In this document: positions 9,901 to 56,949 of the stretch, piece by piece
Numbering within the stretch: position 1 is the first letter of the stretch
How the letters are laid out: each line of letters starts with the position of its first letter
Source of the DNA: Dastarcus helophoroides
Lineage: Eukaryota; Arthropoda; Insecta; Coleoptera; Bothrideridae
Length of the DNA: 64,000 nucleotides
NCBI GenBank assembly: GCA_028583605.1
Contig: CM053331.1
Location: 11,454,857-11,518,856 of the forward strand
Reading direction: 5' to 3'
Translations under genes and position numbers: made by a program
The notes under the pieces: generated by a model
Database searches by the model: none
The model's input: the letters and a program-made list of their open reading frames with translations, nothing else
What the model was told of the DNA's origin: nothing

Positions 9901-12900
9901 ATTCAACACAAAATTAATCGTCAAAAATTATCAGTCTTTTAGCACTTCGACTATCATAACACTAATGACATGAATACACACGAAGTGTTTAATTTTGCTT
10001 TGAAAATCGCAGTTTGCCGTAAAACAGCAGAGCTGCTAGTGCTATCGTGGCCTTTTAATGATGGTAGAGCACGGTAACCATACTAAAGGAGAATCTATAC
10101 TTGCTATCTATCTAGCTTGCACATAGCGATAAAAATGAATTTGCAGTGTGATACTACGATACATCGCCATCTATCCAGTAAGTGCTAAATGATGTGCAGA
10201 TCCCAAAAGTATCATTTATTTCAATGAATCCCACAAACTAGTGTTCAAATAATAGAATAATACCAGACTGCAATAGTCCTCTATATCAGGGGTGGCCAAC
10301 AAGTCGATCGCGATCGACCGGTCGATCGCGAGACCAATTTTGGTCGATCACTCGCAAGTTCGGGGTTTGCGAAAAGTATCTCATAAAAACTTTAACTTAA
10401 AAAGTACAAATACTTTTTATTCAAATGTTTTCTGTGATTAGCTCATAGAAAGGATATAATTTTTATATTATCATTATTTTTATTAGTTTGTTTTGACATT
10501 TGAAATGGTTTTATTAAGTTCTTTTTCTTTGCACTTTTGCAATTCTGTTTTCTATTTAAAGCTTTTGTCGGTAGATAACTTTTTTGCTGCTGCTACTTTT
10601 TGCTACCTATATAAAATTTATTTGAATTGGGATATTACAAAATCAGCATAATACTTCGGCTTATGATAAAAACTTATACAATACATATAAAAACGTATAT
10701 AAACAGAGACTAAATAGACTGAACGTAAGACGGTAAGCAGTGAAGCCAGTTGAAAGCCTGGCGGAAGCCTAGCTCAACCCAGCACTCTCATTATTTGACA
10801 GACCGTTGCCAGTTGCCAGTTGCCAGTTAATTGCCAGTTGCTCGTCATTGAAAAACTTTTCTAAGTCTTTACGCAAAGGAATCATAGGGTATATATTACT
10901 TTTAGTTTATATATTAAAAAAAATAAAAAAAAGTTATTATATCGGGTTCGAACCCGGGGGGTAATCCTCCAAATTTGATCCAATACTTTTATTACATGCC
11001 CTATTATTAAGTCGTATATTTTTTGCATTTTAGTATACCTATTTATGAACATGGATAGCAAACCAAAAAAATCGAAAACATATCATTTCAATGAAGAATG
11101 GGAAATTAACTATTTTTTTACGATGGTGAATGATAAATGTTGCTGCTTAATATGTCTTAGCTCGATAGCCATTGCTAAAAAGGGTAATTTGGAGAAACAT
11201 TTCTTATCTTTACATAACAAGTATCAAACAGATTATCCACCAAATTCCGAATTACGAATTACGAAAACGTAAAGTTCGGGATCTTAAAACTCAATTAACA
11301 AATCAACAAAATATTTTCAAAAAGCCAATATTGAAGTCACAAGCAGTAACAACTGCATCCTTCAAAGTAAGCTATCTATTAGCTAAAAAATGTAAACCAT
11401 TTTCTGATGGTGAATTTGTAAAGGAAATGTTCTGGGAAATCTCGGATTCCCTTTTTAATGATTTTAAGAACAAGAGCGAAATTACTGCTGCAATTCAAGA
11501 TCTACAACTGTCCCGAAACACAGTGATGCGACGAATCGAAAAGATGGGTGGAAATTTAAAGGAACAGTTACAAAATGATATTAACAGATGCTCTTGTTTT
11601 TCTCTTCAATGTGATGAATCGACAGATATAAGTGATACTGCACAGTTACTTGTTTTCATTCGTTTAGTTTTTGAAGATTTTACATCTAAAGAAGAATTGT
11701 TGGGTAGGATTTCTTTGAAAGAAAGGACTAGAGGTGTAGATATATTCAACGGGTTTAAAAGTCTGCTTAATGATAAGAAAGTACCTCTTTTTAAATTAGT
11801 TTCAATAACAACGGATGGCGCAGCTGCAATGATAGGCCGCAAAAATGGATTTATAGCCCTATGTCGAAATGACGATGAATTCCCAGATTTTTTGAGTTAC
11901 CACTGTATAATTCACCACCAAGTATTATCCAGCAAGAGACTAAATACAAAAGAAGTAATGGACATCGCGTTTGAAATTGTTAATTCAATTCGTGGAAGTT
12001 CTCTCAAACGTCGTCTTTTTCAACTAAAACTCGATGAAGGTCAGTCTGATTTATTATTGCATACTGATGTAAGATGGCTAAGTAGAGGTAAATTTCTGCA
12101 ACGATTTCGTGATTTATTGCCTGAAATAATAGAATTTCTTAATGAACAAGAGAAAAAATATGCATATTTAAATGACAAAACCTGGCTTAGTGACTTAGCA
12201 TTCCTTACAGATTTTACTTCCATATTAAGCCATTTAAATTTAGAATTACAAGGTAAAAATAAAACAATAATTGATATGATTAGCAGCATAGATGCATATA
12301 AAACCAAATTTATTTTGTTGATAGAAGATTTACAACAAAATAATATGAACCATTTTCCAAATATGGCAGACAACTTACAAAAAAATAAAAATATTATTTA
12401 TGAGATTGACAAGTACGTGGCCGAAATACAAAATGTAATGGAAGATTTTGAGAAGCGATTCCAAGATTTTAAAAAAATTAAAGAAATTGTGGAATTTACA
12501 TCTTTTCCTTTCAAAAAAGATTTAATTGTGAAGGAAATTAGCAAAAAAATTGCAGACTTATTTGATATGGAGCAAAACGCCTTGGGAAATGAAATTATAA
12601 TTTTACAATCTGATTTAATCTTACAAGCCAGAAAATTTGAAGAAAATTTTTGGAAATATTTTAAACGAGAAAAGTATCCCAATATTATCAAATGTAGCGA
12701 ATATATTTATTCTTGCTTTGGATCTACGTATCTGTGCGAATCGGCATTTTCATATTTACAATTGACTAAAACTAAACTTCGTTCCGTCCTGACCGATTCT
12801 CATACTGAGGACTCATTGTTATTGTCTTTGTCAGGATATACTCCAAATTATTGTAATTATTGTAAAGGAAATGCAGACTCAGGTTTCTCATTAATTTAAA

Positions 12901-18419: not shown

Positions 18420-21400
18420 CTGAAAAAGGGAAAATGACATAATTTTGAAACGTTAACAAACCATAATCATGAATATTTCTTGCATTAAAAGAATTAAACA
18501 TGAAAGAAGGAATTCGTGAAATCACAATCCTTAAATAGTCTTTTGATGGAATCGTATTTGCGATATTGATACCTTCTCTCCAATATCATTCTTACAAATT
18601 AATATAGACTTTATTTGCCGAATAAAAATCATCACTTCTAATAATATTATCCTTAATACAGTGCTATTATTTTCCGCTTTTGGAAATAAGGCTGGTATTT
18701 GAGTTACTCTTTGACTAAAAAATCAACAGTAATTTATTGAAGAACTACCGTCTATAAATTTTACTTGTCGCTTTCCAGTGTTAAGCTATATAGAAAAAAC
18801 TGTGAACTTACTCGTCAATATTTTCTCTGTTAAAACTAGAATTAGGTATCTTTTCAATTAAATGATGTTTCCAGTCCCAAACTGCTGTTGATAATTCATA
18901 ATTGTAATTTATATTGGCACACAAAGGAAGACATTTGCAGTCCTGAAATCCCGTCGTACTGCCGTTTGAGAAAAATTTCTGTTCCAATCCAAACAAAACT
19001 GACATTCCTGTAAAATAACGAAAATTGACTTATCATTTAATCATTCAAACCCTTTCGACTATGCACTTTTTTGTACTTATAATAATTTAACAAAATTATA
19101 TACCAATGCCTAAGATGCATCAGCTAAATCCGCACCAAATTAATTCTACCAGTTTAATTTTAATGTTCAAAGGCTTTAATTAATATTTTACAAGAAACGT
19201 TTTAAAATGAAATTTTATAATATGCAACATTACTGTAAATCGGGGCTACTTTGTCAGCAGTGGTTACATTTCAATTATTACTAATTTATGTTATCTTTTA
19301 TTTTCTTTTTGGTTTGGTTGAAAACTACTAGTTAAAAATAATGCCAAGATTTGAAAATATAGCTGGGTGTCGACTCTACGTAAACTTTACTCCGGAAGCT
19401 ATGGAAAAAGAACTTTCTGACATTAGGAAGGGCCAAGTCAAATGACGCCACAAAATTATACTTTGCAATAAGCTATTTGGTAAGGATCTAATAAATCCAG
19501 GACATTCAGGACTCTAAATTCTTTACAAAAACACACAATAGCTCACATATCAAGGCTTTGAGGATGGGTAGGTAATATATTGTCACTCCAAGTTCCGAAG
19601 ATGAATATATATTAACTAGCAAAACTATTAAAACGCAAATTGGGGATTTCTATTAACATAAACTGATTTTGATCAATTAGTTGCTAAATATCTCCAAAAA
19701 CAAGGCAGGATCTTGAAAAAATGGAAAATTAATTATTATTTTTCTTTATTTATTTACTAATAATTATTTTATTAAAATATTTATAGCTGCAGCTCCAATA
19801 GAAAAATTGATATGATGTCTATCGAGTTTTGGACTGAAAGTTGAAGCAAAAATAATTTTTCATATAGAAGTTACTACCGATAAAATAGTCCCAGAGAATG
19901 TAGCTAATTTTTCAGATATTTAGTCAAAAATCTGCAATATTGTAGTAACAATTTGTATTATTTTATTATACATACAATTAAAAAAAATGTACTGACATAA
20001 TTGAAGGACATCTCTATAAATCTCATAAGCACGAAAAGTAGTTTATCACAAATAATGTTCCAAAACCTGTACAAAATAGCCCTGGTTTACGGTATTCAAT
20101 AGAATCAACAATTGCCACAATTACTGGCTCGATTTTAGACAATTTGGAACTAAAATTGTCACCAATTTCTGAAGGATTGTTAAAAATCTTTTTTTTTATG
20201 TTCAGTGCAATCGTAAAAGATAACCCTCTTAAGCCTTTAAAAGCACCGCGAGTAGGATGCGGAAATGAAGACAGATGGTGATAAACCGCCTTCTTAAACA
20301 AGGATAGATTGTACTTTTTGGGAAAAATTTCGTTCAGTAACGAATTCCATAGCTTGGAAGTTCTAATTTTGATGGAACGGACTGTTCCTTGGTTATCTTC
20401 AAAAATTGAAATAAAAATCTTGTTTTCTGAAACCAAGTAAGATTAAAAAACATAACAAAGGTTGCTCTAACGCGTTTCGATAGTCAAGCTATCATCTTCA
20501 GAAAGTTAAAGTGGTTAGTATCTCTCTAAAGATGATAGCTTGGCTATCGAAACGTGTTAGAGCAACCTTTGTTGTGGTTTTTAATCTTTCTTGCTTTCAG
20601 GGGACAAAATTTGTATTTCAATTTTTGGAAGTTCTATAGAAAAAAGAGTCTCCGTAAACAGAAGTCCTCACCGTGTCAAGCTAGACCTCTCCGTAATTTG
20701 CTGTCTTCAACTGTCTTGTATATCTCAAAAATCTTGCCCTTGGGCGGATCAATCGTATTAGTTCCTGTAAGCATCTCCGAGTAACGTGTACGTGATAAAT
20801 CACCAACCATCCCCCTGTGCTCTAGTATTTCGATATAAACGATCAAACTTTCGTCATCAATTAGGCGAATCGCTCTTCTTTCAATTGAATCCAAGAGAAT
20901 TAAAGTGTACTTTGGGGCTGAACTCGAAACATAAGAACAGTATTCTAGTGTTGGCCTAACTTGAGCTTTGTATAGGGTGAGTAGCTGATGAGATGTTAAG
21001 TACCTACTTTTTAGCTCTAAAAAGAAAGTCTAGCTTCTGAGAGGCGGTTTTGGCTATGGTGCGCACACGATCGTCCCAAGAGAAGTTCGTGCTCCCATTC
21101 ACTTCTAGGATAGATAGATTTAATTCCATCGGGAGGATTTTACATGAGTATGTTTGTTGCATTATCCCTTAATGTTTTCTTAGAGAAAATCGCGGCCTGA
21201 GTTTTTGAGGCGTTGAAGTCGACTAGATTTTTCTTACTTTATTCCAGAATGATTTCGAGATACCCGTTAATCTTCTGTAACTGCTGTTCGCTTAGTCGAT
21301 CTGAAGCAGCGATGTATAATCGTTTGTTAGAGAAAAAAGCCACCAGGCTATATCATCTGCGTAACTGTATATCGGACTGGAAATTGAAGACAACAGATCG

Positions 21401-25806: not shown

Positions 25807-28800
25807 AACGTTTTGTTCACCTTTTTTGCCTTTTTTGCCTGCGTTTTTACCTTATTTGGTTGTTGCCTAAAATCGGGCCTCTACTAATTATTATGCAACA
25901 TCTTGACGTAAATCTTGAACTAAATTTAGAAGCATTTTAAATATTTTTTTGAATGAAATCAAAAGTGCTGTACGAAACAGCGATGCCATTAGCTACTTGT
26001 AATGTTATAAATCTTCTTTTGGTGAGATACACCACATTGTTGATGTTTCTTAATAAGGGGAGATGAGGCAACGAACATCTGCTTCATATTTTGTACTAGA
26101 CTCATGACTTGACTTTATGGTGCAAATCAAAAATTATTTACTTACTTGGCATCCAATAGTCCACACAGCCACAGTGTTTTAAGGTATAATTGGTAAGACA
26201 TTCCAAATGACAATTTGTCTGAGAATAAACTTTAAAATAGCGCAATTTTCTTTCGGAAGAAAAGTAGCAATCACGCTTTTCGGGATCATAGGCCTCTATT
26301 TTTTCAGATGTTGTAATCATCGATGGAATAACAGCAACAAGAACAGCTTCATCAAGAGGAACTGAAAAGAAAATTTGACCTGGACGAGGGATCCTTGCAG
26401 GCATATGTAGTGAAACCTAGAAATATTATGCAAGTTATTTTTTCGTTAAGAAAGATATATAAAGGTTGTGTACGACTTTAACTCACTCTGATTCCTTGAA
26501 AAGCAATCGCTTTGCAGGTATGATCCAAATCTTTTTTATTAGTTAAAACACCCACTGTCAAGGAGTTCTTAGCTCCGGCCAATATTGCTCTGTGAGGATA
26601 TGTTAATAGTGAAGCATTTCCTGCAAAACCTTCTTCAATATTCCACGTCGATTGAGGAGCAGTGTCTAAATGTGGAATGTCCCTAAAAAGATATCGTTTT
26701 CTATAGAAATGTCCCCAACTACAACTCCAATCTTACAGGTCCTGGTATGGTCTATTATCGATTAACAATTTAGTTTCAAATTGCTATTTACGTGAGATAT
26801 TTTATGGCATTAAAATTATCACAGAGATTCAGAATTTCATAAATGATGCTATGGACTGTATAAAAAAGTGTCTATTTGCAAATTGAAACATTAAAAAATT
26901 GTTTTTTAATTATGAAAAAGAAAATTTTACTTCAAGCATAAAATTTTGGAATAAAGACAAAAATTAAATTTCAAATTCATTATATTTATACAGTAAATCT
27001 CAAAGGCTTTTCCGAGGAATCTCAGTTTTCAATGTAATATTACTACTAAGATATTCAAATATTGATTCAAAAAATTCAAGATTTTGGAAAGTAGGTTCAA
27101 CTTCAACTTTAAACTACTTTAAATTTTTATTTGTTTATCAGAATATCGAGTTTTCGGTTAAAGTTTTGTTTGGACTCGAAAGAACTTTTCGCAGAATTTC
27201 AACATTACTCACCAAGTTATATTTATCTCAATATTTCCATAAAAAGTCAAAAGTTGGACCTATATTGGAATGTTTTTTCTCCAGATAACCTCAAAAAAGT
27301 TTTCTTTTTGACTTAATTTCTGCTTTGATTTCGAAATATAGTCATCAACCTTAAAATTTTGAATGTAACTATTAAATGTCGATCAAACTCTGATTTTTTT
27401 TATTCTCCTTTATCTCTAGAAATTGTGAATATAATTGTGAACATAAAGAATTTTTAGAAACACTCTAAATTAACAAAAAATAAGTGTTTTCTTGATGGTT
27501 TATTGTATTTACAGCAATATAAAAACCAGTTGTAAACATTGTGGTTACTTTTCCTAATTATAAAAAATTTGTCTACGTAGTTAGTTGAAATGGACTTACT
27601 TACATATCATCTTCGTATATATCGTTTAAATTTAAAGTATTGAATGTGTAGCAAAAGCCTTCGTCAGTAATAATTGGTCTAAATATTGTTTTGCACGGAA
27701 TATACTTAGCTTCCCATTTACAGATAAATAATTCATGCTCAATAGTGGAACACTAAAAATTAAATACAGTTATTTGTATTTTTATTTTAATACTACTTAC
27801 TTCTTCCAAAAATTGATAAAAATCTTCAGAAAAAGTTTCGTTTTTTACAAGATTGGAGTCGTCATCACATAACAGCGACATATACTCGAAATATTTTTTT
27901 CTGAAAAATTTATTTTAAAACTTCGAACAATACAAAACTATGGCTGAATTCTACTCTGTGGGCGTCACGTCCTGCTGTGCACGAATCGCCTTCAGTACTT
28001 TGCCGTAATCGATACATTTTTTCGAAATTTTGGCTTCCGGGCAAACAGTAACTGCTGGAAATGGCAGATTAAATATTGGCGTATCTCTGGTGGCAAAAGA
28101 AACTAAAACAGGTGCCGATTCCCATTTGTCCCAAATTTCTAGTATCATATACGTGCATCCTCCTATACAAATGATGAATACAAAAATCCACCATAACCTA
28201 GAAAATAGACTTTGTAGAAACATGTTTAAGAGTATAATTATTTTAAAGAGCTTAAGTGTTCTGCTTCTGAAGGAGATTAATCTGTTGAATGGGCACTTAA
28301 AATGTTAATGAACTAGCTAATTTGCTCATGGTGTAAAAATTGATACATCTTTTTCAGTGACATGTTCTACATGGAAGCTAACTAGCTTTCATTGCAAATA
28401 AACAGATACATATTTTTTTATTATTATTATTTTTATTGCGACAAATGTTTTATAATATAGGAGCATGAATAAAGCTAAAAGACAGGTCAATTTATCAACT
28501 GATTCTAAATCCTCTAAATAATTATCCAGAAATATAAAGAAAAACACGCGGAAACAAAACCAAAAATGTCACATATTTTCCCACCCAATTTTCTAATTAT
28601 TTTAGCTAAAGTAACGAGGAGGAAAATAGGAAAAAATAAGAGAGATTTGTTGTTCGGTTTAATTCTTTTAAAGAACTGAAAAAGGAAAGAGAAAATAAAA
28701 GAGACAAGCAAAAGTTATTTTTAACAGTCTTCAACAAAACTTATTTTGAGGTATTTAATTCCTACTTGATACAAAGGGACCCAGTGGCGGCTGGTGCTAA

Positions 28801-37800: not shown

Positions 37801-40334
37801 CCTGTTTCTTATACATGTGAAACAACAGATCCCATGAAAACCATTAGGAGCATTGAAATTGGCTACCAAGGTGTGAACTGAAAACTAGTGATTCAAATAT
37901 TTTTCACCAGCAACTTGTCGACAGAAAAAAAAACAACTTTTCCTGTATATAAAACTGGGTCTTGAAGCAATTTGTTAAATCTCTGTCATTTAAAGCAAAT
38001 TGATTCAAATATCTATTGTGGTATTTTTTAGATTATCATTCGAAAAGATAAAGGCCAGTGTATTTGATTATCCACAGACTCGATAGCTAACTAAGAACGA
38101 ACCTTTCGTCGCAAGAATGACTGAATTTGAAAAGAATGATTTTCTGGCATTCAAAATCATTACCAGATACTTGCTGAAAATACACGAGCTTACGATTACA
38201 TCAAAATTGTCGAACAACTCTTAAAAAGATTCAAAATACTAAATATAACATGACTATCAAATTGCATTTTTTAAATAGCTGTGGGGCAGAGATGAGCAGG
38301 TTAAGCGATTTCACAAAGATTTGAAGATCATGGAGGCACGGTATCAAGGTCAATGGGTTACAAAGGTGAATACACAATAAGCTTGCCCACACTAAAGAAG
38401 GAACTCAAAAATGTTTATCCTTAATAAGTTTGCGTAACACTTTGTAAATAAAAATTTTACTATTTGTATAAGCACAATTTGATTTTCAGTAATATCTAGT
38501 CGCTAGCATTTGCATGAACAATATGTTTGAAAGTGAACACTATATTTGGTAAATTTTACCTTTATTTTCTTTTATATGCTCATCTTGTATGGCTTGTATG
38601 TTGAACCAAGGACAGGTATCCTGTAGATTGAAAAGCTGACATGATAGACTTAAATGTAGTTCATTTTTGGATTTAAAGATCAAAAATTAGTCGAAAACAA
38701 ATCAGATTTTTGGCAGCGAAATTGCCGTTCCCCAGTGTTATTGATGTGTAACTGAAAATCAGTTCTATCGACAAAATTATAACTTGTTAACTAGGCTAAC
38801 TAAGCCGTGTCAGGTTCCTATGTTACAGAAATCCTTCGGAGGTTCCTAGCATAAAATTTTTAAATTTCTAACTTTTTAATACTTTCATATTTATAATTAT
38901 TTGATTATAATAAATAATAAATGACCAATTAAATGTTCTGTAATTAAACAGTTAAACGTGCTTAAAATTGAAAATATGCGTAACCGCACTACCATAGACT
39001 ACTTTCGGTCTTCCTTGGCCTCATCAGTATGGCACGGTGGTTGTATACATTTCCAACTTAAAGCCGTTAGTTAGTCGCATAAGTATCCAAGAGAGTAAAC
39101 CCTCATTGGGTGATTTGTAACTGACTTTTAGCTGTTTATTACGCAAACATTTTCGCTACATGCTAATTGAAGCATTCTTCTCTGCTGAGATAATAAGCCT
39201 TGTATATACGAATATAAACAAGTTTATTACGATGCAATTGAAATCTAATTTCATTAGAAGCTAATGAAAAATAGAATAAAATTGCAAAGTTCACGTAGAT
39301 GAGACAAAGCTTGTATCACGGGTTGCATCTCAACATCCATAGATGCAAACGTTCTCGGCGTGACTTTACTTTCATCTAGTTTGACAAATGACCAATTAAA
39401 CGTTCTGTAATTAAACAGTTAAACGTGCTTAAAATTGAAAATATATTCAACCGCAACCATAGATTAGTTTCTGCCTTCCTTGGCCTCATCAGTATGGCAC
39501 GGTGGTTGTATACATTTCCAACTTAAAGCCGTTAGTCAGTCGTATAAGTATCCAAGGAGAGTAAACTCCCATTGGGTTTCTTGTAACTGACTTTTAACTG
39601 TTTATTACGCAAACATTTTCGCTACATGCTAATTGAAGCATTCTTCTCTGCTGATATAATAAGCCTTGTATATACGAATATATACAAGTTTATTACGATG
39701 CAATTGAAATCTAATTTCATTAGAATCTAATGAAAACTAGATTGCAACTGCAAAGTTCACGTAGATGAGGCAAAGCTTGTATCACGGGTTGCATCGCATA
39801 GATGCAAACGTCCTCGGCGTGACTTTACTTTCATCTAGTTTGACAAGTGATCAATTGAATGTTCTGTAATTAAACAGTTAAACGTGTTTAAAATAATGAT
39901 TAATAAAAAAATTGAAAAAATATTAAAAGCAAGCTTCGCGAAAATACCAATTTTTACCAAACTCATATAACTTTAAGCTACTCGTTCGCTTGGTTCGCTT
40001 GTTTTCAAAAGCTATATTCTTTTAAAGTTTGCTTTTCTACATTTGTTTAATATACTATTGCGACATTTCTGATTCAAATATAAAAACCGCGATTAACTGA
40101 AAATTTGTAAAAACAGTATCCACTATTCAAGCAAATTATAGGCTTCTATGAGCTCACTTACCTTTCGAAGCAGGATATTTTTCTAATCATGTAATTGAGT
40201 CCTTGAATGCTCGAATTTTCACAGTATTCTCTAACATAGCGCCTTAAACTTTTGCGAAAATTCCTCTTTGGTGAATTTTCTTCTTTAATTTCAAAGTTTG
40301 TGAAATTATTTGCTTCCGTTTCCACAGGATCCAT
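18191..40334 (-). CDS. ppk: pickpocket-family DEG/ENaC sodium channel, complete, nine exons
   Basis: Join (minus): 40334..40162, 28197..27955, 27900..27801, 27752..27604, 26682..26487, 26416..26146, 23079..23020, 19007..18812, 18419..18191. These total 1617 nt, giving 538 residues plus TAG; every junction is AG/GT and all phases agree. It is an amiloride-type cation channel subunit in the plasma membrane. The N-terminus has the family block Y-C-E-N-S-S-I-Q-G-L-N-Y (37-48). TM1 is about 59-80. The extracellular loop carries F-P-A-V-T-V-C-P (104-110), G-F-C-Y-T-F-N, H-C-G-C-V-D-Y-W-M-P-R near 370 and the C-K-C-L-P-L-C cluster. TM2 holds G-G-I-L-G-L-F-T-G-F-S (496-507), with the G-x-S selectivity motif, followed by a short cytoplasmic tail. 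The length is normal for the family. The Met at 40334 is chosen because it opens exon 1 just upstream of the conserved block. The subfamily number cannot be told. It may act in mechano- or chemosensation or in tracheal fluid clearance, by family analogy only. Confidence 0.95.
18420..18811 (-). other. ppk: ppk intron 8
   Basis: A 392-bp AT-rich intron with canonical ends; nothing else seen. Confidence 0.8.
18812..19007 (-). CDS. ppk: ppk exon 8 (C-x-C-L-P-x-C)
   Basis: Acceptor TTTTACAG and donor GA|GTAAGT, 196 nt. Contains D-C-K-C-L-P-L-C followed by I-N-Y-N-Y-E-L-S, the pre-TM2 cysteine cluster. Confidence 0.93.
19008..20190 (-). other. ppk: 3' part of ppk intron 7, nothing recognised
   Basis: AT-rich intron sequence between exon 8 and the LINE remnant. 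No motif recognised. Confidence 0.6.
20366..20624. mobile_element. inverted-repeat element with hammerhead-like arms, 12-bp TSD
   Basis: A 259-bp insertion in the LINE, bounded by perfect copies of TTGGAAGTTCTA at 20354..20365 and 20625..20636. The related LINE tail at 44.37 kb shows the empty site. Its two arms are inverted around 20510 and each contains a TGATAGC...GCTATC-type stem followed by GAAACGCGTT-like sequence on the outward strand. Relatives are at 33722..33953 and 50684..50790. The long variable TSD and the terminal motif resemble Penelope-type termini rather than a DNA transposon. Confidence 0.7.
20463..20506 (-). ncRNA. hammerhead-ribozyme-like motif (IR-element family)
   Basis: Minus strand: CUGAAGA, one extra U, a 5-bp stem GAUAG/CUAUC, then GAAA and CGCGUU. 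Sequence before CUGAAGA (CUUU) can pair with AGAG after the putative cleavage triplet. The extra U between the core and stem II departs from the canonical hammerhead, so activity is uncertain. The plus-strand counterpart at 20520..20562 has CUAAAGA instead of CUGAAGA. Confidence 0.5.
22904..22984. repeat. (AGTT)n tetranucleotide microsatellite
   Basis: About 80 bp of AGTT repeats with a few substitutions, just downstream of ppk exon 7 in intron 7. Confidence 0.9.
23020..23079 (-). CDS. ppk: ppk exon 7, 60-nt microexon
   Basis: Acceptor after a T9 tract (TTTAG) and donor A|GTAAGT. Only one frame is open; it gives D-L-C-G-G-A-K-A-E-C and completes the M-P-R motif from exon 6. It is too short for ordinary ORF calling and was found from phase and motif continuity. 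Confidence 0.88.
23121..25883. mobile_element. non-autonomous TIR element (hAT-like), AT-rich interior
   Basis: A 2763-bp insertion in ppk intron 6 with ends TAGAGATCGG and CGGGCCTCTA, flanked by CTAATTAT at 23113..23120 and 25884..25891. The interior is degenerate A/T sequence with recurring TTTTGCC and AAATTTCGAC words and no coding frame. A (TA)n tract lies near its right end. A long portion is related to 54900..56530, which shows that this is a dispersed family. Confidence 0.75.
25725..25802. repeat. (TA)n microsatellite
   Basis: A TA dinucleotide run with short interruptions, within the 2.76-kb TIR element. Confidence 0.95.
26146..26416 (-). CDS. ppk: ppk exon 6 (cysteine-rich core)
   Basis: Acceptor TTTCTAG and donor A|GTAAGT, 271 nt. 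Encodes the beta-ball/knuckle region through R-D-C-Y-F and C-H-L-E-C-L to H-C-G-C-V-D-Y-W-M-P, whose last Arg is completed by exon 7. Confidence 0.94.
26487..26682 (-). CDS. ppk: ppk exon 5
   Basis: Acceptor TTTTTAG and donor AGA|GTGAGT, 196 nt. Reads W-N-I-E-E-G-F, Y-P-H-R-A and D-L-D-H-T-C-K, then F-Q-G-I-R, in the order seen in insect pickpocket proteins. Confidence 0.92.
26683..27603 (-). other. ppk: ppk intron 4, nothing recognised
   Basis: A 921-bp AT-rich intron with canonical splice ends. No repeat recognised. Confidence 0.7.
27604..27752 (-). CDS. ppk: ppk exon 4 (G-F-C-Y-T-F-N motif)
   Basis: Acceptor TTTTTAG and donor AT|GTAAGT, 149 nt. Carries W-E-A-K-Y-I-P-C and D-E-G-F-C-Y-T-F-N, the diagnostic DEG/ENaC extracellular signature. 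Using the second GTAAGT four bases further on would run into TAA. Confidence 0.92.
27801..27900 (-). CDS. ppk: ppk exon 3
   Basis: Acceptor TTTTTCAG and donor GAA|GTAAGT, 100 nt. Encodes a 33-residue extracellular segment with C-D-D-D and an N-E-T sequon. Confidence 0.9.
27955..28197 (-). CDS. ppk: ppk exon 2 (TM1 and start of extracellular domain)
   Basis: Acceptor TTCTAG|G and donor GA|GTAGAA. 243 nt with 80 full codons. Contains TM1 (L-W-W-I-F-V-F-I-I-C-I-G-G) and the F-P-A-V-T-V-C motif. An in-frame TAG just past the donor shows the frame must splice here. Confidence 0.93.
28198..28773 (-). other. ppk: start of the ppk intron 1 region before its transposon cluster
   Basis: AT-rich intron sequence adjoining exon 2. 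No feature recognised. Confidence 0.6.
28782..29988 (-). mobile_element. internally deleted hAT element with transposase remnant
   Basis: A 1207-bp element with ends CAGTGGCGGCTGGTGC and GCACTAGCCGCCACTG. Flanks AAGGGACC (28774..28781) and ATGGGACC (29989..29996) match at 7 of 8 positions. The minus strand around 29180..29090 reads I-T-I-P-M-T-S-A-E-A-E-W followed by L-E-R-I-K-T-L, the C-terminal hAT block usually seen as P-x-T-S-A-x-A-E-R-S-F-S. It lies in ppk intron 1. Confidence 0.8.
30063..30394. mobile_element. TIR MITE in ppk intron 1
   Basis: Inverted arms of about 75 bp: AAGATCAAACTAACTTACAT... at the left and its reverse complement with a few changes ending near 30394. Both arms include TCGAAGTAAATAGGA at their inner ends. 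No clear target duplication. Confidence 0.6.
30395..32114 (-). other. ppk: ppk intron 1 sequence, nothing recognised
   Basis: Contains a 114-codon minus-strand frame (31342..30998) and a 64-codon plus-strand frame (30555..30749). Neither shows a motif I recognise, and both probably occur by chance. Confidence 0.45.
33722..33953. mobile_element. second copy of the hammerhead-like inverted-repeat element
   Basis: Shares both arms with 20366..20624 (ACCAAGAAAGA..., CAACAAAGGTTGCTNTAACGCG) and keeps a longer right end that mirrors the left end of that copy. The right arm has lost most of its stem II segment. It is inserted in the RTE-like LINE. Confidence 0.7.
33786..33828 (-). ncRNA. hammerhead-ribozyme-like motif
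   Basis: Minus strand: CUGAAGA, extra U, GAUAGC-UUG-GCUGUC stem (one wobble), GAAA and CGCGUU. Same design as 20463..20506. Stem I pairing is weak here. Confidence 0.45.
34351..35293. mobile_element. CpG-rich Harbinger-like TIR element
   Basis: A 943-bp element flanked by TTA (34348..34350 and 35294..35296). The left end is GTTCGCGCGTCCACAC; the right end, read in reverse complement, is GTCACGTCCACAC. Subterminal AGCGAACGAAC motifs are mirrored. Base composition is far richer in G+C and CpG than the surroundings. Short frames inside have no clear match; 35052..35170 is faintly MADF-like (W-P-S-D, C-W-E-I), only a guess. Confidence 0.65.
35454..36073. mobile_element. foldback TIR element
   Basis: Long inverted arms: ACCTATTTTTGTCAAC... 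with GAGGTGACGT and ATCACGTAGTCA on the left are mirrored at the right end by TGACTACGTGAT, ACGTCACCTC and GTTGACAAAATAAGAGGT. No coding region. No target duplication I can be sure of. Confidence 0.65.
36074..37268 (-). other. ppk: ppk intron 1 sequence, nothing but a short TTAGG run
   Basis: AT-rich sequence. The only feature noted is the telomere-like repeat at 36566..36585. Confidence 0.5.
36566..36585 (+). repeat. short interstitial (TTAGG)4
   Basis: Four perfect units of the ancestral insect telomere repeat. Too short to imply a former telomere. Confidence 0.8.
37269..37792. mobile_element. Harbinger-like MITE copy 3, split by a solo LTR
   Basis: The MITE ends are flanked by TAA at 37266..37268 and 37793..37795. 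The two halves match other copies (CACTAGACACTTTATTCC on the left, TCTCGGATAGCTTCTCTC on the right) but are separated by 316 bp of LTR-like sequence. Confidence 0.75.
37326..37641 (+). mobile_element. solo LTR of a Ty3/Gypsy-like retrotransposon
   Basis: A 316-bp insertion starting TGTAGC and ending GCAACA, flanked by ATAT on both sides (37322..37325 and 37642..37645). It carries TATATAAG at 37485 with a TCAATTA initiator-like site about 25 bp downstream and AATAAA at 37533. TG...CA ends, a TATA box, a poly(A) signal and a 4-bp TSD together indicate a solo LTR left after recombination. The superfamily is inferred from the TSD length only. Confidence 0.65.
38095..38380 (+). pseudogene. fragment of a repeat-encoded insect protein family
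   Basis: Shifting plus-strand frames read N-D-F-L-A-F-K, then I-V-E-Q-L-L-K-R-F-K, then R-F-H-K-D-L-K-I-M-E-A-R-Y-Q-G-Q-W. This resembles the E-R-F-H-Q-D-I-x-x-M-E-x-R-Y-Q-G-R-W block of a large repeat-encoded protein family I recall from many insect genomes; I do not know its function. Several frameshifts, no start. Confidence 0.45.
38983..39038 (-). ncRNA. type-I hammerhead ribozyme, unit 1
   Basis: Minus strand: CUGAUGA (39027..39021), stem II GGCC-AAGGAA-GACC (one C/A mismatch), GAAA, then GUAGUC with putative cleavage after C at 38997. Stem I is GUGCCAUA before the core pairing with UAUGGUA after it, a 3-nt bulge, then ACCG with CGGU. Stem III is minimal and has a G/G clash at its second pair. 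All invariant core residues are present. Confidence 0.75.
39450..39503 (-). ncRNA. type-I hammerhead ribozyme, unit 2 (partly degraded)
   Basis: Minus strand: CUGAUGA (39492..39486), GGCC-AAGGAA-GGCA, GAAA, CUAAUC with putative cleavage after C at 39462. Stem I CCAUA/UAUGG and ACCG/CGGU is retained with a shorter bulge. The pair closing stem II next to GAAA is lost (G/A), and the second stem III pair is C/A. Confidence 0.7.
40162..40334 (-). CDS. ppk: ppk exon 1 (start codon, cytoplasmic N-terminus)
   Basis: ATG at 40334 and donor AG|GTAAGT at 40161. It encodes 57 codons plus two bases, including the conserved Y-C-E-N-S-S-I-Q-G-L-N-Y block. It was identified by homology and phase although it is 12 kb from exon 2. 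Confidence 0.9.
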
Positions 40335-46747: not shown

Positions 46748-46885
46748 TATGATAACGAAGGCTTCCACGGTCAGAGTCAGTACAGCATATACTTCTTCCG
46801 GGACTGGACCTTGTCAAAGAACTACTAAAAGTGTTCGACGTTTCACTCACCATCGTAAGGGTCTTCTTTAGGAACAAAAAAACAA
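46748..46885 (-). repeat. inverted terminal segment of the Penelope element
   Basis: Reverse-complement relative of 50110..50265 (shared GAAGCCTTCGTTATCAT-type end, ACTTTTAGTAG, GAAACGTC). Its ribozyme-like core is mutated to CUAAAGA. It marks the 5' boundary of the Penelope copy. Confidence 0.7.
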
Positions 46886-46934
46886 TAAATGAAAAATAAA
46901 ATACAACTGTGATCACACGTCCTCAATTCTAAAA

Positions 46935-47486
46935 ACTTTGCAGAATTGTTGTCCGAAGTAACCCTGGACCCCAACGACATACTGGTAAGTTTGGACGTCA
47001 CTTCACTATTCACTAATGTTCCAATTTCCGACTCCATGACGATAATTCGTCAATTACTTTCAGGCAGGTTCTCTAGTTGATTTATCTGAAATGTGCCTCA
47101 CATCGACTTATTTTTCTTTTAATGGTAGTTTCTATAAACAAATGTCTGGCACCCGAATGGGTTTCCTCTTATCCCCAGTCGTAGCAAATATTTTCATGGA
47201 ATCTTTTAAAAATACTGCGTTGGAAACTGCGGGTTTAAAACCCAAGCTATGGCTTCGTTATGTAGATGATACATTTATTGTATGGCCTCATGGCAAGGAT
47301 TCACTAAATATATTTTTGGAACACTTAAACAGCTTAGATTCTTCCATTAACTTCATTATGGAAATCGAAACCAACGGTTCTTTTCATTTTCTTGACGTAT
47401 TGGTCACCCGTTTACCAAACGGTCGCGCCTCTCATTCCGTTTATCGAAAACCCAACATCACTCTTCCCAAAAACGTTTTGTTATAA
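46935..47486 (+). pseudogene. Penelope-type reverse transcriptase, 5'-truncated
   Basis: Shifting frames give D-I-L-V-S-L-D-V-T-S-L-F-T-N-V (motif A) near 46975, then an open frame (47091..47486) with Q-M-S-G-T-R-M-G-F-L-L-S-P-V-V-A (motif B), L-R-Y-V-D-D-T-F-I-V-W (motif C, active YVDD) and F-H-F-L-D-V-L. Continuation after 47490 in other frames leads to the GIY-YIG domain. The family is clear; the protein is interrupted. Confidence 0.88.
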
Positions 47487-48305
47487 ATTCACTGGTTTCA
47501 CGAGCTGTAGTAATTTCACAGCCGATAAATCTTTCAGAATAATCGAACAAAATTCGTTTTAACCTCCGCAACAATGGTTACAAATCGCACGACATTGAAA
47601 CTGTCATTAAACAACATCGCCACCCTACCCCTCGTCCTTCAAAAAATTCAATAATTTCTTCTAAAGTCTTTCTTCCTTATGTTCACGGAGTGACAGATCG
47701 AATCGGAAAATTATTGAGAAAACACAACATTAAATCCATTTTTTCATCATCCTTAAAAATCTAACAGCTCCTTTCATCTCCCAAAGATAAAACTTCATCC
47801 TTTTGATCTAATGGTGTGTACAGGGTTGTTCTTGTGGTTCAGTGTACAGGATGAGCGAAACTCGATGTCTCAGCTCTATTATAACAAAAGAAAAAACGAT
47901 ATAAGAAATCTGCAAAGAGGTTCTTAAATTGAATGGAATAAGATCCATTATAAGTCAAATTTGCATATTTTTCCAGATTTGGAAACCAAAATAATGACGT
48001 CATTGAACTTTTTTTTCCAGAAACATACTTGTATTTCTACATATTTAAAAAGAGGTAGTTTTTTTAAACAAATTTTGTATAGAAAAAAATTTGGTATCTT
48101 TTTCGAATAAAAAGTTATAAGCAATTTTATTGCAAAAAAAGAATACCAACAAAAACTCCTAACTACTGCGATTTAAACAAATAGCCTCTAGAAATGCAAT
48201 AAATCAAAAATCAAAGAAGAGTGCAATCTGTCAATAATTAAACTAATGGTAAACAAATATTTTTTGTTGCCATTTGACCTGAAAAATGTTCACGTAAAAG
48301 ATATA

Positions 48306-49158
48306 CAGGGTGAATTAGAAAGAATGGGCCAACGCTAAACTGAAGGTACTAGACACCAAAATATTACGATCGAGCTCAATATGTCTTATACCAATGTGGA
48401 TGGTTTAAGAGGTACAGGGCGTTGAAAGTTTAAATTTTGTTCTGAAATTTTTTAATAATTGGGAAAGTTTTGATGCTAGTAATTTAATATTTGGGAATTT
48501 TATGTTTTTTGGTGTGAGAACTACGAATTTTGAATTTATATTGATGTTGCCCCTAGAGGCGCTAATTTCACATAATCATTTACGTAAATTAAAACATATT
48601 TTTTTTACCTGTTGAATTATACTTAAAACAAGTAGACAATATAAAAAGCGATCAATTCTATAAAGAAAAGGTACTCTTGTTTAAGTCGTCTAAAGGTAAG
48701 GATTTTTTATATATTTGCAATTAAAAGTTTCAATGTATTTTTTTAATGTTTTTTCTAATTTCACATAATAATTTACGTAAATTAAAACATATTTTTTTTA
48801 TTTGTTGAATTATACTTAAAACAAGTAGACAATATAAAAGGCGATCAATTCTATAAAGAAAAAGTACTCTTGTTTAAGTCGTCCAAAGGAACGGTTTTTT
48901 ATATATTTGCAATTAAAAGTTTCCATGTATTTTTTTTAATGTTTTTTTAAGGCGTAGATATTACTATAATAAAATATTAAATTTATAGCACCAAAACTTT
49001 TTCAATTATTGAGAAATTTCAGAATAAAATTTAAACTTTGAACGCCCTGTATCTCTTGAACTATTTACATTAGTATAAGGCATATTCAGCTCAATTGTAA
49101 TATTTTGTTGTCTATTCTCTCCAGTTTTGCGTTAGCCCATTCTTTCTGATTCACCCTG
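48306..49158. mobile_element. nested Tc1/mariner-like MITE
   Basis: An 853-bp element with ends CAGGGTGAATTAG and CTGATTCACCCTG, TA-flanked. The arms are inverted (ACGCCCTGTATCTC at the right mirrors the left). Its centre holds a 193-bp tandem duplication. Confidence 0.82.
48562..48947 (+). repeat. 193-bp tandem duplication inside the nested MITE
   Basis: Two adjacent units begin CTAATTTCACATAAT at 48562 and 48755 and match closely throughout, ending near 48947. Confidence 0.85.
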
Positions 49159-49938
49159 TATTATTTATTAGTTTATGGGAAATTTCAAAAGAACACTAGA
49201 AGAGCAGGGGAATACTCTCTGAGACGTGTTATTCCAAATCTGAAAATAATTAATAGATTTGTTTCCAAAGGCTGTTTGATTAAATCGCACCAATTGCGAA
49301 TTTTTAATAAAACATTGTTTACAATAAATTTGCTTGTAAATTTTTAACGGAAAAAGATACCAAATTTTTTTGTTTACAAAATTTGTTTAGAAAAATTAGC
49401 TCTTTTTAAATGTATAAAAACATAGAAATATTTCTGGAAAAAAAATTCAATGACGTCATTACTTTGGTTTCCAAATCTGAAAAAATATGCAAATTTAGCT
49501 TTGAATGGACCTTATTTAATCCAATGTCTGAATCTCTTTTCAGATTTCCTACATCATTTTTTCTTTTCTTATAATAGCGCCGAGACATTGAGTTTCGCTC
49601 GCCCTGTACATCGGAGACACGGGGCGATCATTTAAGACGCGAATATCCGAGCACCAAAGATGTCTTAGGTCTGGTTTATTTTCGCAGTCAGCCATTGCCG
49701 AATATCAACATGAGACCGGACATAAGATTATCTTTGATAATATTTTAATTATATCCAATATTCCCAATTATTATAATAGGAAGATACGCGAGGCCATTGA
49801 AATCCAAAAATTTCCCAAAAACATCAACAGAGACGACGGTAACATGCTTTCCTCCATCTGTAAACCAACCATCGGAAATCTTCGGACGTGATCGCGCAGA
49901 CGAATGGTATAGAAAGTTTCCCTTTCCCTCTTTTCTGT

Positions 49939-50059
49939 CAGAAGAGTTTCGCCTCTGGTATGGTGGACACAGTGAGTTACCGTGCTCTTTGGTCTAAACT
50001 TTCTTATCCTTTGTACCAATTTGCAATTCAGAAGAGTTTCGCCTCTGGTATGGTGGACA
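49939..50059 (+). repeat. two 31-bp direct repeats, 90-bp period, in the Penelope 3' region
   Basis: CAGAAGAGTTTCGCCTCTGG and its continuation TATGGTGGACA occur at 49939 and again at 50029. They lie between the endonuclease remnant and the terminal ribozyme-like motif. Confidence 0.85.
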
Positions 50060-50130
50060 TACTGGGTGCTCTGATGTTTTGAAATTGGCCTTTCCATTCT
50101 TTCATTTTTGCATATTCCTCTTTTCATTTC

Positions 50131-50180
50131 TTTGTTCCTGAAGAAGCCCCTGCGATGGTGGATGAAACGTCCAACACTTT
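50131..50180 (+). ncRNA. hammerhead-ribozyme-like motif at the Penelope 3' end
   Basis: CUGAAGA (50138..50144), a stem AGCCCC/GGUGGAU with two mismatches, GAAA, then CGUC. GUU before the core can pair with AAC after the cleavage triplet, beyond a C/C mismatch. Hammerheads with minimal stem III are known from Penelope-like elements, which supports the reading. Confidence 0.5.
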
Positions 50181-50275
50181 TAGTAGATCTTTGACACGGT
50201 CCAATCCCGGAAGAAGTATATCCTGTACTGACTCTGGCCGTGGAAGCCTTCGTTATCATAATATTGTATACAACA

Positions 50276-56908: not shown

Positions 56909-56949
56909 CAGGTACTGATGATGGTAGCAAAAAGACGAAACGTCTATTA
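56909..56949 (+). ncRNA. hammerhead-ribozyme-like motif
   Basis: CUGAUGA (56915..56921), an extra U, a weak GGU/GAC stem, GAAA, CGUC, with GGUA before and UAUU after able to pair. Probably a degraded Penelope-type terminus. Stem II is poor. Confidence 0.4.

Follow-up and report, generated by a model that had tools for sequence, protein, structure and literature searches.

Retrozyme copies in the beetle Dastarcus helophoroides end at two fixed sites and form fold-backs that may record priming from both target strands by Penelope machinery

Metazoan retrozymes lacking long terminal repeats (non-LTR retrozymes) have been described as RNAs of ~170-400 nt arising from genomic repeats of 150-450 bp, with insects named among their hosts (Cervera and de la Pena 2020, PMC7229834). 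Their mobiliser and the template that it copies are left open in that paper, where Penelope elements are called "a strong candidate", and long interspersed nuclear elements (LINEs) or Penelope elements have been proposed elsewhere (PMC11722881). The present analysis concerns a family of such repeats in the beetle Dastarcus helophoroides, one copy of which lies in an intron of a pickpocket (ppk)-like gene within a stretch of 64,000 nucleotides (hereafter the window; assembly GCA_028583605.1, contig CM053331.1, positions 11,454,857 to 11,518,856). Like the retrozymes described in PMC7229834, the family has one type I hammerhead per monomer, low-G+C tandem repeats from dimers up (37% G+C in its consensus), many dispersed copies and target duplications larger than those of plant retrozymes, and its sequence places it best among the metazoan non-LTR retrozymes. 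Unlike them, it has a monomer of 465-466 bp, slightly over the published range, and a loopless palindromic stem III. Its copies form head-to-head fold-backs with two fixed ends and with variants common to both arms, none of which is described in the portions of PMC7229834 on cnidarians or in its discussion, and these features probably reflect reverse transcription by Penelope machinery that is primed from both cut strands on one circular retrozyme RNA.

Two further repeat families bear comparison. A hammerhead in an insect tandem repeat is known from pDo500 of Dolichopoda crickets, for which single and double forms are proposed; pDo500 is described as a satellite, and its double form keeps stem III within one strand (PMC2837043), whereas the stem III of the beetle retrozyme would be shared between two. 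The W-elements of Schistosoma are satellite-like repeats with a link to hammerheads and possible target duplications on autosomes, and no two-site fold-back architecture is given in the relevant passages of PMC8490949. Metazoan retrozymes, their presence in insects, minimal Penelope hammerheads and internal initiation by a Penelope protein are already in print. Neither fold-back retrozymes with two start sites nor arm-shared variants were found in searches of an open-access library, a coverage outside which most subscription papers lie.

The genome (538.9 Mb in 50 contigs) was searched with the restored 25-base hammerhead core, which gave 2573 matches at up to 3 mismatches and 0 for a reversed-pattern control; long matches share 88-93% identity with the window copy. 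A preliminary description, made from the window, had proposed a retrozyme or ribozyme-satellite family. Copies are indeed numerous across the genome, with the core and stem I conserved in them, and a hammerhead-bearing tandem repeat of this type agrees with the first half of that proposal, whereas fixed ends, target duplications and dispersal speak against the second. Long arrays without fixed ends, as expected of a satellite, were not seen among 81 elements, the longest of which reached ~3 kb within the stretches cut. The loci examined, 80 in number, were chosen either by similarity to the 976-bp window copy (L001-L030, a choice that favours long arrays) or by a perfect 25-base core (L031-L080, all on contig C1); L010, L015, L022 and L027 were left out of the counts as repeats of their neighbours, and for L009 the right outer end was supplied manually from L010.

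The 466-nt consensus of the 80 loci has a stem II of GGCC/GGCC and a stem III of ACUAGU, a loopless palindrome that is its own complement; together with the core, H17 and an open stem I, these parts make up a predicted type I hammerhead. Of 104 ribozymes from L001-L030 without the four repeats (26 loci, not selected for the ribozyme), 93 retain core, stems I-III and the cleavage nucleotide H17; of 57 from L031-L080, 39 retain core, stems and H17. When eight better-preserved loci were compared with Rfam, two units scored 28 bits (expectation value E 0.004; best 28.2, against HH9), the rest of those listed scoring 22.5-22.9 bits (E 0.18-0.25). No retrozyme unit in the window or in these eight loci reached the gathering score of 52, and the motif is called a putative hammerhead from its conserved core and stems rather than from Rfam. 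Divergence per site among copies is 0.41% (10/2445) for the hammerhead versus 0.69% (289/42080), too few changes for selection on it to be claimed.

Copies were placed on a circular map of the unit, on which phase 0 is the first base after cleavage; their ends, set by local alignment, carry an error of a few bases, and 1-2 bases of the element may be counted in the duplication lengths. The 81 elements comprise 43 single arms, 37 two-armed fold-backs and one three-armed element (L059, excluded from the end counts), and 51 of 120 arms are longer than one unit. In the ribozyme sense, 101 of 117 3' outer ends fall at site A (phase 72-87, ~80 nt after cleavage) or site B (phase 268-283, ~278 nt), against 9% expected for the phase ranges used, compared with 7 of 117 5' or inner ends. 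The ribozyme sense points outward ('-+') in 37 of 37 two-armed fold-backs, whose outer ends are paired A/B in 28, A/A in 1 and B/B in 0, with one end elsewhere in 8. Among the 29 fold-backs with both ends at these sites, one same-type pair or fewer would have a probability of ~2e-8 to 6e-8 if the two ends were independent; the other 8 are excluded from this figure. Single arms end at A in 27 cases, at B in 8 and elsewhere in 8. Exact target duplications of at least 10 bp were found at 27 of 80 elements, a third, and in 0.3% of shuffled pairs; among complete fold-backs, 21 of 36 have one (10-13 bp in 18 of them) and the other 15 have at most 7 bp. Duplications of at least 10 bp are in keeping with a metazoan retrozyme, for which target duplications, when present, are larger than 4 bp.

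The same two sites emerge from genome-wide counts of 25-base markers (at most 3 mismatches), which are independent of the choice of loci. These counts are 3275 just 5' of A and 1512 just 3' of it, 2088 just 5' of B and 1244 just 3' of it, and 2573 at the hammerhead; they form the sawtooth expected of copying that starts at A and B and fades with distance. From the two steps, some 2600 arms would be expected in the assembly. A second sample, drawn from exact-match coordinates on C1 below 31.5 Mb, gave 114 clusters, 84 in one orientation and 30 fold-backs. All 30 fold-backs are '-+', with outermost markers A/B in 23, A/A in 4 and B/B in 3; this sample shares some loci with the first, and a lost marker mis-assigns an end.

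Two other origins of these structures were rejected. A snap-back (self-primed) fold-back is predicted to have arms with identical outer ends and nearly equal inner phases, and this origin was rejected because the outer ends differ in 28 of 37 fold-backs and the inner phases differ by at most 15 in 2 of 37. A linear cleaved monomer was rejected as the template, since the cleavage phase holds no excess of 5' ends (of 117, 1 lies in phases 0-9 and 5 lie in phases 440-465).

The DNA ends fit fixed internal start sites, placed from the ends themselves, with both strands primed. A precedent is offered by PAc, a Penelope-like element of the lizard Anolis, the protein of which cuts and extends both strands and starts at two internal sites within an AC-rich stem-loop, most commonly 111-118 nt into the frame (PMC11167929). 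By our own subtraction this start lies 85-92 nt past the ribozyme cut, about the same distance as site A of the retrozyme (73-88 nt). According to the same source PAc prefers A+T-rich targets; the retrozyme flanks are A+T-rich too, but so is the window. Unlike the retrozyme, PAc has a protein-coding frame, and its start sites are adjacent (tail 30-40 bp) and not 198 nt apart (PMC11167929). The retrozyme consensus, folded as a circle, has a predicted minimum free energy of -162.7 kcal/mol versus -97.5 +/- 5.7 for 60 base-shuffled versions (z about -11). In this one predicted fold of one sequence, site A lies in UCAAAAC, the 7-nt loop that caps a 7-bp hairpin, and site B in AGCA, which caps a short one; these apical loops contain 47 of the 60 ends at A and 27 of the 41 at B.

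Sixteen positions of the unit vary at >10% in the family. At these sites, units within an arm agree in 1393 of 1441 comparisons and different elements in 61%. The two arms of one fold-back match in 1079 of 1101 comparisons (98%; 1091 of 1113 with the three-armed element), whereas second arms exchanged between elements, L059 included, agree at a mean of 62% and a maximum of 79.4% over 1000 shuffles. Every variable site is concordant in 21 of 37 testable elements, and the remaining, discordant elements differ mostly at one or two sites. Of the 169 variant sites with threefold or greater coverage, 140 are private to a single unit, so that later homogenisation is not a likely cause of the agreement between arms, and gene conversion is disfavoured. 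With homogenisation unlikely, an agreement of 98% as against 62% after exchange indicates that the RNA copied into the two arms was as a rule of a single sequence, and most simply a single molecule. The fold-back L024 carries units with different variant sets, unlike nearly all others, and may record two templates or a heterogeneous multimer.

A candidate helper of the retrozyme is a Penelope-like family with a decayed member in the window. In that member, a GIY-YIG-like fragment was recognised by eye from ~49600, with no Pfam hit, and a minimal hammerhead-like motif lies at 50138; an inverted copy of the 3' end is found at its left edge. Across the genome the family has 1612 candidates, of which 150 were scored and 150 matched, with open frames of up to 900 codons. 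A hammerhead-like motif, CUGAAGA ... GAAACGUC, marks the 3' end; it is found in 7 of 8 3' regions compared and not in L089, which is without the Penelope 3' end, and an Rfam search of the motif in L081 gave no match at E up to 1. Judged by eye, copies stop at two places, ~50-58 nt past the predicted cleavage in L081, L082, L083, L085 and L086 and ~86-93 nt past it in L084, L087, L088 (with a small deletion), L092 and both window arms. One Penelope fold-back (left end L092, right end L081) combines a longer and a shorter end, one per arm, and is flanked by a 13-bp duplication seen by eye. Penelope elements of Adineta vaga likewise have terminal parts inverted head to head, with a 31-bp tail at one of the inverted ends, and 8-10 bp duplications (PMC3846280), the same asymmetry of ends as in the retrozyme and the Penelope family here. 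The authors of that study favour self-priming on antisense RNA, whereas the unequal inner phases, different outer sites and identical variants of the retrozyme arms argue for two primings on one sense RNA. Separately, the window Penelope is interrupted at 47843-49610 by an insert with long inverted repeats.

The proposed sequence of events is as follows. Multimeric sense transcripts would be cut by their hammerheads into 466-nt monomers, a reaction in which stem III, loopless and palindromic, should be most effective between two paired hammerhead copies, and the monomers would be ligated into circles. A Penelope protein would cut both target strands with a stagger of ~10-13 bp, and reverse transcription would start inside the circle at the two stem-loop sites, A and B. 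Priming of one strand would yield a single array, with the polymerase perhaps circling up to ~4.5 times, and priming of both, usually at A and B of the same RNA, would yield a head-to-head fold-back with variable inner joints. We regard as evenly balanced a more specific version, in which animal retrozyme copies are frozen records of Penelope reverse transcription by a dimeric enzyme on one circle with two dedicated stem-loops, one per cut strand, and in which a dimer-dependent hammerhead cuts only multimers and so protects the monomer circle from self-cutting.

Several points weigh against copying of a circle by Penelope machinery. RNA cleavage, circularity of the template and identity of the enzyme are all inferred. 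An end lies outside both sites in 8 of 37 fold-backs and 8 of 43 single arms; 53 of 80 elements have no exact duplication of at least 10 bp; and 7 of the 30 fold-backs in the marker sample are A/A or B/B, though a lost marker can cause this. At least one variable site is discordant in 16 of 37 testable elements, agreement is complete in just 14 of the 23 fold-backs with at least three sites on both arms, and the array L024 is mixed at 7 of 16 variable sites. On the Penelope side, the window fold-back has ends of the second, longer type on both arms and no duplication was seen there; Penelope ends share only short strings with sites A or B and no clear sequence; and sites A and B are 198 nt apart, versus ~35 nt between the two Penelope sites. 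Finally, hammerhead cutting is reported as not needed for insertion by PAc in vitro (PMC11167929).

The last point leads to the alternative that survives best, although we consider it unlikely: the same retrozyme and enzyme, with the uncut multimeric transcript and not a circle as template. Such a transcript would also yield arrays of more than one unit without a break at the cleavage phase, and it would suit the mixed array L024. In the lizard system in vitro, moreover, the RNA chiefly used as substrate was unprocessed, and mutating the ribozyme left insertion unchanged (PMC11167929). Two indirect observations point back to a circle. At 14 of the 169 sites covered at least three times, every unit of the array carries the variant, for which the sequence must at some point have passed through a single unit, and the strict pairing of A with B on RNA of one haplotype is best fitted by one small RNA.

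Mobilisation by a LINE or another non-Penelope retroelement is improbable. LINEs share target duplications and 5' truncation with the retrozyme, twin priming is known for L1 (PMC2837659), and LINE-like reverse transcriptase fragments were seen by eye in the window. Two fixed internal starts with priming of both strands are, on the other hand, described in PMC11167929 for a Penelope element but for neither R2 nor L1, and no poly-A tail was seen by eye at the copy ends printed. A numerous Penelope family of similar layout is resident in the genome, the LINE families of which were not searched. Much less probable still is an ordinary satellite, spread by unequal exchange or by excised DNA circles and carrying its hammerhead incidentally; a monomer of satellite-like size in tandem, and the hammerheads of the cricket satellite pDo500 (PMC2837043), would suit it, whereas the arrays are short and dispersed, end at two phases, bear target duplications and have fold-backs of uniform orientation. 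The least probable of all is a Foldback-like DNA transposon with tandem-repeat inverted arms, which would account for inverted arms and short target duplications but is contradicted by outer ends that differ (A versus B) in 28 of 37 two-armed elements, and are not terminal inverted repeats, and by the 43 of 81 elements that are one-armed with a variable second end.

At the window locus (Table 1), Tandem Repeats Finder places the array at 38919-39894, where a tandem repeat had been described, with units of 465-466 bp (period 466, 2.1 copies, 91% matches). The variable 5' end is at phase 26, and the flanks show no clear exact target duplication (best 7 bp). CUGAUGA...GAAA cores on the minus strand, with predicted cleavage after C39462 and after C38997, define a unit of 465. 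The preliminary description had placed a hammerhead in every unit; the two full units carry one and the partial third has no core. Of the motif parts then listed, the core (nine residues checked), H17 and stem I are intact in both copies, but stem II is damaged in both, as is stem III. Copy 1 has a C.A mismatch in stem II and AGUAGU as stem III, and copy 2 has a G.A pair next to the core in stem II and ACUAAU as stem III, so that both have lost the GGCC/GGCC and the ACUAGU of the consensus. The Rfam comparison that had been suggested brought nothing to the gathering score in the window: HH9 matched one copy at 13.4 bits (E 7.3), and the other gave no match. Because stems II and III are damaged in both units, efficient self-cleavage of the window copy is unlikely; and because it is 93.0% identical to the family consensus, as against 97.3-99.6% in 23 of 26 other copies of at least 900 bp, it is an old insertion in which a working ribozyme is improbable.

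The array lies ~270 bp downstream of the first exon of the ppk-like gene, within a 12-kb intron and on the same strand, and the sense orientation earlier assigned to it is supported by the exon with its GT donor (40334-40162) and the next exon near 28230. The first exon was called from its open frame, its donor and a ppk-like motif; alone it has no significant Pfam or PDB match, and the exons after it match Pfam ASC. An effect on ppk pre-mRNA, raised in the preliminary description, is unlikely for a copy so diverged from the consensus and damaged in stems II and III of both units, and nothing was seen at this locus, an old and damaged copy in a 12-kb intron, that points to a role in ppk expression.

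Table 1. Positions of the retrozyme copy, the ppk-like exons and the Penelope-like element in the window
Feature	Position	Strand	Remarks
Retrozyme insertion, single arm of 2.1 units	38919..39894	-	3' end (ribozyme sense) 38919 = site A, phase 75
3' terminus of retrozyme at family site A	38919..38926	-	Family range phase 72-87
Hammerhead copy 1	38960..39060	-	Core start 39027; predicted cleavage between 38997 and 38996
Hammerhead copy 2	39430..39525	-	Core start 39492; predicted cleavage between 39462 and 39461
First coding exon, ppk-like gene	40162..40334	-	57 codons plus 2 nt; donor GTAAGT
Next ppk exon	27951..28230	-	Pfam ASC; upstream border approximate, acceptor not settled
Decayed Penelope-like element	46748..50260	+	Reverse transcriptase fragment 47046-47486 (Pfam RVT_1)
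Inverted repeats of insert	47843-48194 and 49262-49610		Nested pair 48303-48492 and 48972-49161
193-bp tandem pair inside insert	48562-48947		Tandem Repeats Finder

Other hammerhead-like strings occur in the window. The only other CUGAUGA-N6-24-GAAA string, at 56915 (+), reads CUGAUGA...GAAACGUC and resembles the minimal Penelope hammerhead, with a poor stem II. Two related strings, CUGAAGA-UGAUAG...CUAUC/CUGUC-GAAACGCGU, lie at 20501 (-) and 33823 (-); stem II is kept in them via a G.U change, a palindromic ACGCGU stands in the position of stem III, and they are perhaps another minimal-hammerhead family. The string at 20501 adjoins LINE-like reverse transcriptase fragments recognised by eye. 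At 11169-12899 (+), a 576-codon open frame has features of a hAT-type transposase (DUF4371 and Dimer_Tnp_hAT, both below the Pfam cut-off). Among the retrozyme fold-backs, matches to Rfam microRNA families were rejected as inverted-repeat hairpins that score below the respective gathering scores. The inner joints of two of them (L023:1232-1410 and L009:3295-3416) are long hairpins with weak scores as microRNA precursors; if transcribed, such joints could give rise to small RNAs that silence the retrozyme.

With its fixed ends, its A/B rule and variants common to both arms, this family turns the question of mobilisation into concrete predictions, namely two start sites, one RNA and both strands. 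The same three features may also account for the head-to-head arrangement of Penelope elements. A self-protected monomer circle, if true, would answer the published puzzle of why retrozyme circles stay closed.

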